Positions 5,706 to 8,942 of a DNA stretch of 64,000 nt are shown piece by piece. How positions within the stretch are numbered: the stretch's first letter is position 1; the number at the start of each line of letters is the position of its first letter. The position numbers and the translations under genes were made by a program. This stretch comes from Ignisphaera aggregans DSM 17230 (lineage in GTDB: Archaea; Thermoproteota; Thermoprotei_A; Sulfolobales; Ignisphaeraceae): NCBI GenBank assembly GCA_000145985.1, contig CP002098.1, forward strand, positions 936,182 through 1,000,181. Reading direction: 5' to 3'. Under the pieces are notes generated by a model. The model saw only the letters and a list, made by a program, of their open reading frames with translations, was not told the origin of the DNA and searched no databases.

Positions 5706-5784
5706 AATATTTTAGACATAAAATCCGGTATATATAACTAAATCGGTAGTGTCTATAGTAACGTGAAATAGTAGATGCATAGCT

Positions 5785-7200
5785 ATGGATAGAATAGAGC
5801 TTATATGCCCAAAGTGTAAAACTACCTATGAATTTAATCCATATGCAAAGCTGTGTCCAAAGTGTAGAGCACCACTATTTACTAAATATAGCTTATTAGA
5901 TAGAGATACTTTCATTAGATGTATAGAGGAGGCTCATCTCAGACATGAATATGGTATATGGAGTTTCGGCTCTCTTCTACCTGTAGATAGTGGTGAGAGT
6001 CTTGGTGAGGGGTGGACACCTGTTATAGAGGTGAAAAACCTTGGCTCTGAATATAACATAAGACTTCTACTCAAGAATGAGTCTCTAAATCCTACAGGTA
6101 CTTTTATTGATAGGGGTGTAGCTGTAGATGTATCCTATGCATATAGAAATGGCTTTAGAAACATTGTATCTGTTTCATTGGGAGACTATGCAGTTTCTCT
6201 ATCAACATATGCCACACGTTACAGCATTAAGGTTACTCACTATATACCTAGGAATATAGAGCTTTGGAAGCTATATAGAATATCTATACATGGATCAAGG
6301 ATAAATCTTGTTGATAGCTATGTAGATGAACTTAGAAGAGCTTTGGAGAGATATAGAGATAGATCGATATATCTATCTATCTCCTCATCACCAACTGTTA
6401 TAGATGGCTATAGAACAATTGTTTTTGAGCTCTATAGATATATAGCTAGAGGTGTTAGATGGATAGCTCTACCCATAGGCGAAGGAGTTTTAGCTACAGC
6501 TATATACAAAGGGCTATATGAGTTATCAGAATACATGGATATAGATGATGTTAGGATACTCGGGGTTAAGCTATATACAGATAAACCAGGTTCTATACCT
6601 GGAGCAACACCTGATCTAATATATGAGCTAGGGGTTGGGGAGACACCTACACAGAGATTCATAGAAAATATCGCCAATAAAGATGTGCTCCACATAGTAA
6701 ATGTAGATGGAGATACAATAATTAGAAGTGCCCTTGGCTTAGCAAGGAGAGAGGGTGTGTATATAGATCCCATAGGAGCAACATCACTAGCAGGTGTTGT
6801 TGAAGCTGTTGAGAGGGGTGTTATAGATAGAAACGAAAGCGTTATAGCCATAGTTAGTGGCAGTCCATCTAAAGATCCATACACACTGTATAGCCTTATC
6901 GAAAAAGATGAAAAAGCCTTCGAAAGGATAAGAAACATGGATATAGATAGGTATAGCATCAACAAGATACAGAGAGAAATACTGAGAATACTATACGAGA
7001 AAAATATACTCTACCTCTATGCAATATGGAGAGAACTACTCAACAGAGGATACAACATATCTCTACAAACACTACACTACCACATAAACAAACTAATAAG
7101 CTATACACTCATAGAACCAATAAAGATTACAGACAATGAAAGAACATACTATAGACTCACCAACCTAGGTCTAGAAACCTTGGAGAAAATCAGAGAATAA
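5785..7200 (+). CDS. Threonine-synthase-like pseudoenzyme fused to a winged helix; putative regulator
   Basis: Three parts are visible. An N-terminal zinc ribbon (CPKC and CPKC, residues ~8-28) is followed by a PLP fold-type II domain of the threonine synthase family (~40-380) and a C-terminal winged helix (~390-471) with a recognition-helix segment SLQTLHYHINKLISY and a wing ending ERTYYRL. In active threonine synthases the motif NPTGSFKDRG holds the lysine that binds PLP. Here it reads NPTGTFIDRG, with Ile at residue 108 (codon ATT at 6106). The phosphate-binding SSGNTxxSLAAYA motif is also changed, to SLGDYAVSLSTYA. So the enzyme is almost certainly inactive and may sense an amino acid or phosphoester to control transcription. 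A TATA-like element lies at 5728-5738. The threonine synthase relationship is sound; the regulator role is inferred. Confidence 0.85.
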   Translation: MDRIELICPKCKTTYEFNPYAKLCPKCRAPLFTKYSLLDRDTFIRCIEEAHLRHEYGIWSFGSLLPVDSGESLGEGWTPVIEVKNLGSEYNIRLLLKNESLNPTGTFIDRGVAVDVSYAYRNGFRNIVSVSLGDYAVSLSTYATRYSIKVTHYIPRNIELWKLYRISIHGSRINLVDSYVDELRRALERYRDRSIYLSISSSPTVIDGYRTIVFELYRYIARGVRWIALPIGEGVLATAIYKGLYELSEYMDIDDVRILGVKLYTDKPGSIPGATPDLIYELGVGETPTQRFIENIANKDVLHIVNVDGDTIIRSALGLARREGVYIDPIGATSLAGVVEAVERGVIDRNESVIAIVSGSPSKDPYTLYSLIEKDEKAFERIRNMDIDRYSINKIQREILRILYEKNILYLYAIWRELLNRGYNISLQTLHYHINKLISYTLIEPIKITDNERTYYRLTNLGLETLEKIRE

Positions 7201-7256: not shown

Positions 7257-8942
7257 CTATACTGTTCTTAAAGTATAGTATATACCTATAGGCACCTTAA
7301 ATCTATAGCCATTCTTAATATATTCATATTTACTAACCCTTATATACACATCTTCCCATACATTGTAATCATTTGGTATAGCTGGGTCATCACCTGCGTT
7401 ATATAGACTCCCACTGAAAGTCTCTAAACCTTCTCGAGCTATATCTACACTAAACCCCGCTATAAATGATAATACAGACGAATTTGTTATCAATCCAGAG
7501 TATTCTAGGAATACTGCTGCCACAGCCCCTACAGGAACTCCAATCTCGAAATCTATAGCATCATATGTATTAAATATATCGTCAAACAGCAGACTTTGAC
7601 TTGTATTCAATCTCTTAACATATTGCTCCTCAGTACCATTAAACATCATATCAACAATTTGTTTAGGTTCACCATATTCACGCCCTCCTACAATGTATTT
7701 TATGTTGTTAACAACATTATAGCTTATGTATGTGATGGTGGCTGTAATTGTATTATTTGCTCTATACAAAAAACACCCACTATCACAACAACTTCCAACG
7801 CTACATTCATTGAGATATTTATCAAGATAGCCAACAAGAAATTCTCCAATGTTAGCACCACCATAGGCATAGTATGTTTCATACTCTGCAAATATAGGTC
7901 TTGCAAGAATCCAAATCCAACGCTTAGACTCTGGTGGTACTGAAAAACCTTCTATAAAACAGAAATTATCGCTTATGGTACGGCCTGCAAGATATATCTT
8001 ATTATTGATTAGACCTGCTGTAAGATCTCCAAGACTCCATGTAAGATATACACTACTTCTAAAGATCGCGGAGATGCCTATTGCTATTTCTATGGTTCCT
8101 GAATAATTATATTGGTTGTAGATCATCATTATCGGTGTTTTCATACACATCTTACTATTATCTGAAATACATGGAGATACATACTCTTGTGGTAATATTG
8201 TTGTTAAATTCTCAGATCCTATATAATACTTTCTTCGATAACATATACCAACAGTAGAATCTTCAATAGCATTTATGCACCACCTATCTTCTTCACTTGA
8301 TGGTAATTCCACTGGTGTAGCTGCATATATCTTTCTGATACCGGGTATATTCAGTTCTATCGATAGATATTTCCTATCTATAGAGGTTAGCCTAGCAATC
8401 TTTTCACTTCCTACAGCTAGAGAAACTGTGTATCGGATTGCTTTTCCAGATACAATATCTATGGGTTTTATAGGTATTGAATCTACATATCTAGCTATCT
8501 CCACCTTATCATATTCCTTGTTTTTGATAGCCGTTAGATTTAGAATATGCATGAATATTATTAGCCCGTGTTCAAATGTATCCATCCTGGCTCCATGTAC
8601 CCTATGCTCCTCCTCCCAAGCTCTCGCTATATCTAAAAGCTTCCCCTTAGCAGGTATATATATTGGATCCCCAGTATATTTACCAGCATATATAGGAATA
8701 AAATCACTACCATTATAATTTGGTGGAGATATAGCTAAAACAGATATAGCAACACCTATATCTCTACCAATACTAAGAGACTTAATACCTCCACCAACAT
8801 CTCTAAAAAGCTTCAACTCAATATAGACACCAGCAGGAGGAGTTGAAATAGTTGTTATAGCTATAACAGGAATAGCTATAGCTACAGCAATTAGAACAGC
8901 AACACCCCTCCTACCCAATCTACCAAAGATATTTATAGCCAT
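7257..8942 (-). CDS. Large secreted or membrane-anchored protein of unknown function
   Basis: 561 residues. The N-terminus has the charged segment GRLGRRG, then a hydrophobic helix at about 13-33, consistent with a signal peptide or membrane anchor. The rest is rich in beta-strand-like hydrophobic and aromatic patterns and in N-x-S/T sequons, as expected for an extracellular archaeal protein. A cysteine cluster (CSVGSCCDSGC, ~residues 380-390) could form disulfides. I recognise no catalytic motif or domain. It is a single gene, convergent with the upstream threonine-synthase-like gene and followed by no operon partner. An A-run (GTTAAAAAAAG on the minus strand, 8979-8992) may be part of its promoter. 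Confidence 0.7.
   Translation of the reverse strand: MAINIFGRLGRRGVAVLIAVAIAIPVIAITTISTPPAGVYIELKLFRDVGGGIKSLSIGRDIGVAISVLAISPPNYNGSDFIPIYAGKYTGDPIYIPAKGKLLDIARAWEEEHRVHGARMDTFEHGLIIFMHILNLTAIKNKEYDKVEIARYVDSIPIKPIDIVSGKAIRYTVSLAVGSEKIARLTSIDRKYLSIELNIPGIRKIYAATPVELPSSEEDRWCINAIEDSTVGICYRRKYYIGSENLTTILPQEYVSPCISDNSKMCMKTPIMMIYNQYNYSGTIEIAIGISAIFRSSVYLTWSLGDLTAGLINNKIYLAGRTISDNFCFIEGFSVPPESKRWIWILARPIFAEYETYYAYGGANIGEFLVGYLDKYLNECSVGSCCDSGCFLYRANNTITATITYISYNVVNNIKYIVGGREYGEPKQIVDMMFNGTEEQYVKRLNTSQSLLFDDIFNTYDAIDFEIGVPVGAVAAVFLEYSGLITNSSVLSFIAGFSVDIAREGLETFSGSLYNAGDDPAIPNDYNVWEDVYIRVSKYEYIKNGYRFKVPIGIYYTLRTV

Follow-up and report, generated by a model that had tools for sequence, protein, structure and literature searches.

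The window analysed here is a 64,000-nucleotide stretch of the Ignisphaera aggregans DSM 17230 genome, and the gene of interest in it (Table 1) is an open reading frame with an ATG start that was confirmed as real. In Pfam, residues 72–359 match the PALP family (PF00291, 1.9e-46), threonine synthases (ThrC) are the best PDB sequence matches, and the AlphaFold model (pLDDT 91.6) has the ThrC structures 6NMX and 6CGQ as its top Foldseek matches. The N-terminal zinc ribbon (C8, C11, C24 and C27) is common to true archaeal ThrC. At the other end of the protein lies a winged helix-turn-helix (wHTH), modelled at pLDDT 95.7, with PadR and MarR regulators as the nearest folds, some of them in complex with operator DNA (e.g., 7EL3 and 5H3R). 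The PadR profile (PF03551) matches 15 of 17 relatives, with a best value of 1.4e-11 and 0.082 for the window's copy. These results bear out the preliminary description of a ThrC fold with Ile at the catalytic lysine, followed by a C-terminal winged helix. Convergent with the gene is a 561-aa open reading frame (7257–8942, reverse strand) with no Pfam match.

Table 1. Features of the regulator gene, in window positions.
Feature	Position	Strand	Basis
Lys-less threonine-synthase-like regulator with winged helix, 471 aa; proposed vitamin B6 regulator	5785..7200	+	Pfam, PDB alignments, AlphaFold/Foldseek
Putative TATA-like box 5′ of the regulator gene	5729..5736	+	by eye
N-terminal zinc ribbon, C8-x2-C11 ... 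C24-x2-C27	5806..5865	+	kept in nearly all family members and true archaeal ThrC
NPTGTFIDRG, PLP-lysine motif; Ile108 (codon 6106-6108) replaces Lys	6088..6117	+	alignment to 2D1F/6CGQ/1UIM
SLGDYA, SxGN loop; Asp134 replaces Asn	6175..6192	+	alignment
Val205, aligned with the true-ThrC Arg thought to bind substrate phosphate	6397..6399	+	R in 4/4 true ThrC, 0 in family
PIGEGVL, PLP-phosphate loop (GNAGN in true ThrC); Gly232/Gly234 retained, acidic Glu233	6472..6492	+	alignment
PadR/MarR-like winged helix-turn-helix, C-terminal; recognition helix about 7063-7101	6964..7197	+	model, fold and profile matches

In alignments to 2D1F, 6CGQ and 1UIM, I108 lies opposite the PLP lysine (NPTGTFIDRG vs. 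NPTGSFKDRG), and since family members in other genomes share this loss, neither a sequencing error nor pseudogene decay accounts for it. No substitute lysine was found in the PLP site, the family-conserved lysines K97 and K162 being present in Lys-bearing ThrC as well. Across the family, in a sample partly selected against Lys, position 108 is Ile in 42 sequences, Arg in 36, Leu in 28, and Val, Met, Tyr and Phe in one each. Position 205, an Arg in 4/4 true ThrC where it presumably binds the substrate phosphate, is V, L, F, S or T in the family, with Arg absent from every group. The segment SLGDYAV had been read as a changed phosphate loop; it is indeed changed, but it is the SxGN loop, which we take to contact the PLP ring and the substrate carboxylate, not the phosphate, and the true phosphate loop (residues 230–236, PIGEGVL) is altered relative to ThrC too. 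The Asn of the SxGN loop is retained in 40/72 I/L/V/M-type and 26/36 R-type sequences. Also largely retained are G232 and G234 of the phosphate loop and a Thr/Ser at 358, expected close to the PLP ring nitrogen, while K97, E99, N102, P103, D109, R110, T211 and E215, together with H433 and L437 of the wHTH, are invariant in the A1 alignment. From this conservation across the family alignment, the PLP site is partly preserved, and the catalytic and substrate residues are gone. The window's branch has D134 and E233, compared with the Asn and Asn/Ser common elsewhere in the family; since these acidic residues sit in the ring and phosphate loops, the ligand of the window's copy may differ from PLP and may be an unphosphorylated vitamer or some other compound.

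Could the protein still be an enzyme, with some unusual lysine-independent activity and an incidental DNA-binding domain? Conservation of the zinc ribbon, of the fold and of many residues in the pocket (K97, E99, N102 and R110) would agree with such a reading, but we regard it as extremely improbable, given that across the whole family, D-type members included, the lysine has become Ile, Leu, Val, Arg, Ser, Ala, Thr, Tyr or Phe, that the D-type has no SxGN loop, and that a true Lys-bearing ThrC is present in the genome.

The protein belongs to a large archaeal family, found in Thermoproteia, Bathyarchaeota, Thaumarchaeota/Aigarchaeota, Asgard archaea and some Thermoplasmata. The Thermoproteia loci were first gathered by similarity alone, with the residue at the Lys site disregarded; among those examined in sequence, that site holds I, V, L, R, Y or F in the members with the wHTH, and the Lys-bearing ThrC (L002, L062-L065) have no wHTH. 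Single-sequence scanning of genome contigs gave no matches, and a profile scan of GTDB genomes found the further relatives, 80 of 176 being kept, from Thorarchaeota, Heimdallarchaeota, Lokiarchaeota, Njordarchaeota, Baldrarchaeum, Borrarchaeum, Bathyarchaeota, Thaumarchaeota/Aigarchaeota, Methanomethylicia and Thermoplasmata. Residue counts from the profile scan are biased because its pattern admitted I, R or L only at the Lys position, and the zero count of Lys across the family is not independent because this pattern and the locus filter excluded Lys. The four true ThrC group apart from the others in the tree, as a clade with SH-aLRT 100, and the Lys-less sequences fall into two big clades, one I/L-type and the other comprising the R-type plus the D-type. 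This topology is compatible with, and no proof of, a single loss of the lysine. The D-type, which came to light as the neighbour of pdxS genes with a GAACGTTC palindrome, is a divergent subclade of about 373 aa with the motif NPTGSY[AST]DRAS (K to S, A, T or V) and a lost SxGN loop.

Members of NF004170/PRK05638, a model named "threonine synthase" that includes the wHTH, carry Arg at the Lys site when they score above its cut-off, and are part of the family: the R108 branch scores 699 bits against a cut-off of 421, and the window's protein 184 bits, under the cut-off. In addition, the "equivalog" models NF004170, NF006050 and TIGR00260 score Lys-less regulators (L090, L150 and L179) above their cut-offs. 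Because curated threonine synthase models score them so highly, Lys-less regulators are annotated as enzymes, and amino-acid pathway predictions are therefore corrupted for many archaea. A literature search, with most subscription journals outside its reach, found no published description of the family.

The gene neighbourhoods of the relatives point to vitamin B6. In 28 Thermoproteia loci, the S component of an ECF transporter lies directly 3′ of the regulator gene on the same strand, after a gap of 11–152 bp, and at most of these loci genes for a double ABC ATPase and an EcfT-like protein come next; in two more Thermoproteia loci the ECF operon is adjacent and convergent. Outside Thermoproteia, an S gene is found at most three genes away in 29 of 50 genomes, mostly divergent, as in Thorarchaeota, Lokiarchaeota, Njordarchaeota, Aigarchaeota and Bathyarchaeota. 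The synthesis genes pdxS and pdxT adjoin the regulator in Baldrarchaeum (L149), Bathyarchaeota (L179, L187 and L219), Borrarchaeum (L211), a Thermoplasmata MAG (L181) and G116 (L118). Of the 37 D-type loci in genomes with PdxS, 31 have pdxS less than 4 kb away and invariably on the same strand; in G154 the D-type gene adjoins ECF-S, not pdxS. Among annotated neighbours, the recurrent ones that cross lineages are pdxST or a B6-type ECF transporter. A biotin carboxylase-like gene (cluster 10), conserved beside the regulator in Ignisphaera, was set aside as local synteny with no functional link seen. Individual D-type genes lie beside pdxST at L126, L128-L130, L133, L139, L140, L142 and L143, and beside ECF-S in L261, with a ATTGAACGTTCAAT palindrome in the promoter. 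Within Ignisphaera, PdxS is of two sequence types (L124-L143), one found with the D-type regulator and the other in genomes without it.

The S component belongs to PF07155, the family to which PdxU and PdxU2/HmpT have been assigned (PMC9997740). A profile of 20 S components matched a single PDB chain, HmpT (4HZU, 5e-13), for which pyridoxamine has been reported as a substrate (PMC4860826). In the 50 genomes outside Thermoproteia, PdxS is present in 0/29 transporter-linked and 8/21 other genomes (p = 3.8e-4, nominal as all p-values here, since the sequences are phylogenetically correlated), and in six of the eight PdxS-bearing genomes the regulator gene is beside pdxST. Within Thermoproteia, PdxS is found in 4/30 transporter-linked genomes vs. 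106/196 others, and the ThiC control, at 2/30 vs. 69/196, has the same odds ratio, as general auxotrophy would produce; the absence of PdxS is therefore not specific to B6 in Thermoproteia, and we rejected it as sole evidence for this vitamin. The ThiC result, along with the naming of PF07155 after riboflavin, could also be taken to mean that the transporter imports another vitamin, e.g., thiamine or riboflavin precursors, and that the pocket senses that compound. We consider this quite unlikely, as pdxST adjacency recurs in several phyla and at the 31 D-type loci, the S profile matches no PDB chain but HmpT, and the sensor domain is derived from a PLP enzyme.

It had also been suggested that the protein may control threonine, homoserine or methionine genes, and it might accordingly sense one of these compounds. 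Only its ThrC ancestry speaks for such a sensor, and this part of the preliminary description was not supported: the recurrent annotated neighbours are B6 genes (pdxST or the B6-type ECF transporter), the substrate-phosphate Arg at 205 is lost, and a true Lys-bearing ThrC and homoserine dehydrogenase are encoded elsewhere in the window's genome. No threonine or methionine genes occur among the annotated neighbours, and homoserine dehydrogenase is the least anti-correlated with transporter linkage of the three pathways tested. We thus rejected a threonine/methionine regulon, and a sensor of this kind seems very unlikely.

Candidate operators were found in several lineages. The sequence CCTATATATAGG occurs 11–26 bp 5′ of 12 regulator genes. 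In 11 of these 12 genomes it is the only copy, placed between the regulator gene and the transporter gene, and G233 has one more; copies in a coding region (G242) and some 200 bp 5′ of a trpB-like gene (G233) were left uncounted. This second copy in the Thorarchaeota genome G233 (L226:1501) possibly marks a further regulon member or is there by chance. As CCTATATATAGG overlaps a TATA box, it could partly be a promoter feature. Close variants, e.g., CCCATATATGG and CCTATATATAGA, are found in the divergent regulator-pdxS promoters of Bathyarchaeota and Borrarchaeum. The palindrome GAACGTTC is found 5′ of pdxS in 10/11 genomes with the D-type, including G127, where the D-type gene is on a different contig from pdxS, vs. 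0/9 without (nominal p = 1.2e-4). It tracks this separate paralogue, and was rejected as the operator of the window's protein. The C-type regulator promoter of G098 (L104) carries TGAATGTTCA, close to the D-type candidate operator, which hints at related DNA specificity.

The window's genome has the A-type gene (the window's copy), pdxS and one PF07155 ECF operon, and no D-type gene. The A-type gene is unlinked to pdxS and to the ECF operon, whose start (G000:C1:1000287) lies some 106 bp beyond the end of the window. In Ignisphaera, the ECF-S promoters of G124, G129, G130 and G131 have in common TTCGATTA-N5-TTCGAT followed by a TATA-like AAGCTTA, and this TTCGAT repeat with 13-bp spacing, found 5′ of the unlinked ECF operon, also occurs 5′ of pdxS in three genomes including the window's. 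The window's genome has candidate operators TTCGATTAATATATTCGA for the ECF operon (1000219–1000240) and TTCGATGTAAATATTCTATTAA for pdxS (492189–492210, the gene being near 491355–491972). When a matrix trained on the four ECF-S promoters was used to rank 300 upstream regions, pdxS of G132 came 5th, pdxS of G129 6th, ECF-S of G132 8th, and ECF-S and pdxS of the window's genome 9th and 12th. By comparison, in the Ignisphaera genomes that have no A-type gene (G126, G127, G128 and G133) the pdxS promoters scored at most 4.4, and the G127 ECF-S promoter 4.8. The motif is weak in the window's genome, the pdxS score of 9.1 being matched by 0.8% of random 330-bp windows. With at most one mismatch, the pdxS site is the only TTCGAT-repeat match in that genome, and with up to two mismatches the pattern is no commoner there than a reversed control. 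The motif was not found in the window gene's own promoter, and autoregulation was therefore rejected.

One might suppose that the family is B6-responsive and the Ignisphaera A-type branch re-purposed, sensing or regulating something else. Its lack of linkage to pdxST and ECF-S, and the residues D134 and E233, would fit this. We nevertheless find it rather unlikely: within Ignisphaera, PF07155 is present in 6/6 genomes with the A-type gene vs. 1/5 without, ECF-S and pdxS promoters share the motif only where the A-type gene is present, and the transporter-linked B-type of the same clade carries the same Asp substitutions.

Because its relatives adjoin genes for vitamin B6 synthesis or uptake, a B6-responsive gene switch is the most likely function. 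We estimate a probability of roughly 0.78 that its product is an archaeal transcription factor responsive to vitamin B6 and acting on pdxST and/or a B6-type ECF transporter. In the proposed mechanism, a ThrC paralogue would have lost its covalent PLP anchor, the lysine, and gained a PadR-like winged helix, and its old, no longer catalytic cofactor pocket would bind PLP or another B6 vitamer reversibly. Pocket occupancy would report the free B6 level and alter DNA binding by the wHTH, which would act at or near the TATA box of its targets, pdxST (PLP synthesis) and/or the B6-type ECF transporter (S-A-T). Reversible binding is proposed by analogy with PdxR, and repression is a guess from the overlap of candidate operators with the TATA region. 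We infer DNA binding at these operators, the identity of the ligand, the sign of regulation, and direct PLP sensing by the window's copy. A pdxST/pdxU-type regulon is supported by linkage at the family level and, for the window's copy, solely by the shared promoter motif. The earlier proposal that the protein is a dead enzyme which now probably serves as a ligand-sensing transcription factor is well supported by the Lys-less fold, the conserved wHTH, the target-gene linkage and the candidate operators. More broadly, we think it likely that these proteins make up an undescribed archaeal B6-sensor family spanning TACK and Asgard archaea and annotated as threonine synthase. Such a family would have arisen when a fold-type-II PLP enzyme turned into a transcription factor on losing its lysine, with reversible PLP or vitamer binding, and would also mark the B6 importer (ECF) of Archaea. 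For most prokaryotes no B6 importer is known (PMC9997740), and the family offers a candidate archaeal B6 regulator and B6 importer at once, with named promoters and sequences.

Several known systems are informative for comparison. Like ThrC (6NMX, 6CGQ, 2D1F and 1UIM), the family has the fold, many pocket residues and, as in archaeal ThrC, the zinc ribbon; unlike ThrC, it lacks both the Lys and the substrate-phosphate Arg, differs in the SxGN and phosphate loops, and carries an added wHTH. NF004170/PRK05638 describes the same proteins, namely the R108 branch with its wHTH, yet the members examined have no Lys and lie mostly 5′ of an ECF transporter, contrary to the name "threonine synthase". 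The C-terminal domain resembles PadR regulators in wHTH fold and sequence, whereas the PadR dimerisation domain was not identified and the sensor is the ThrC-like domain. As in bacterial PdxR and other MocR/GabR regulators, a winged helix is joined to a PLP-enzyme fold, and as with PdxR the regulon would hold pdxST and pdxU-type genes, often divergent from the regulator. MocR and PdxR have an N-terminal GntR wHTH and a fold-type-I aminotransferase domain, in contrast to the C-terminal PadR/MarR-like wHTH, the fold-type-II ThrC domain without Lys, the N-terminal zinc ribbon and the archaeal distribution found here. The aminotransferase domain of MocR retains its lysine. PdxR regulons include pdxST and pdxU, with PLP-responsive DNA binding at direct or inverted repeat operators, and MocR regulators have been reported absent from Archaea (PMC5320631); our literature search found no description of a vitamin B6 regulator of Archaea. 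The best reading, in which we have good confidence, is an archaeal fold-type-II counterpart of bacterial PdxR with reversible B6-vitamer binding. It would represent an independent, convergent path from PLP enzyme to PLP-responsive transcription factor, through fold type II without a covalent anchor as opposed to fold type I in PdxR.
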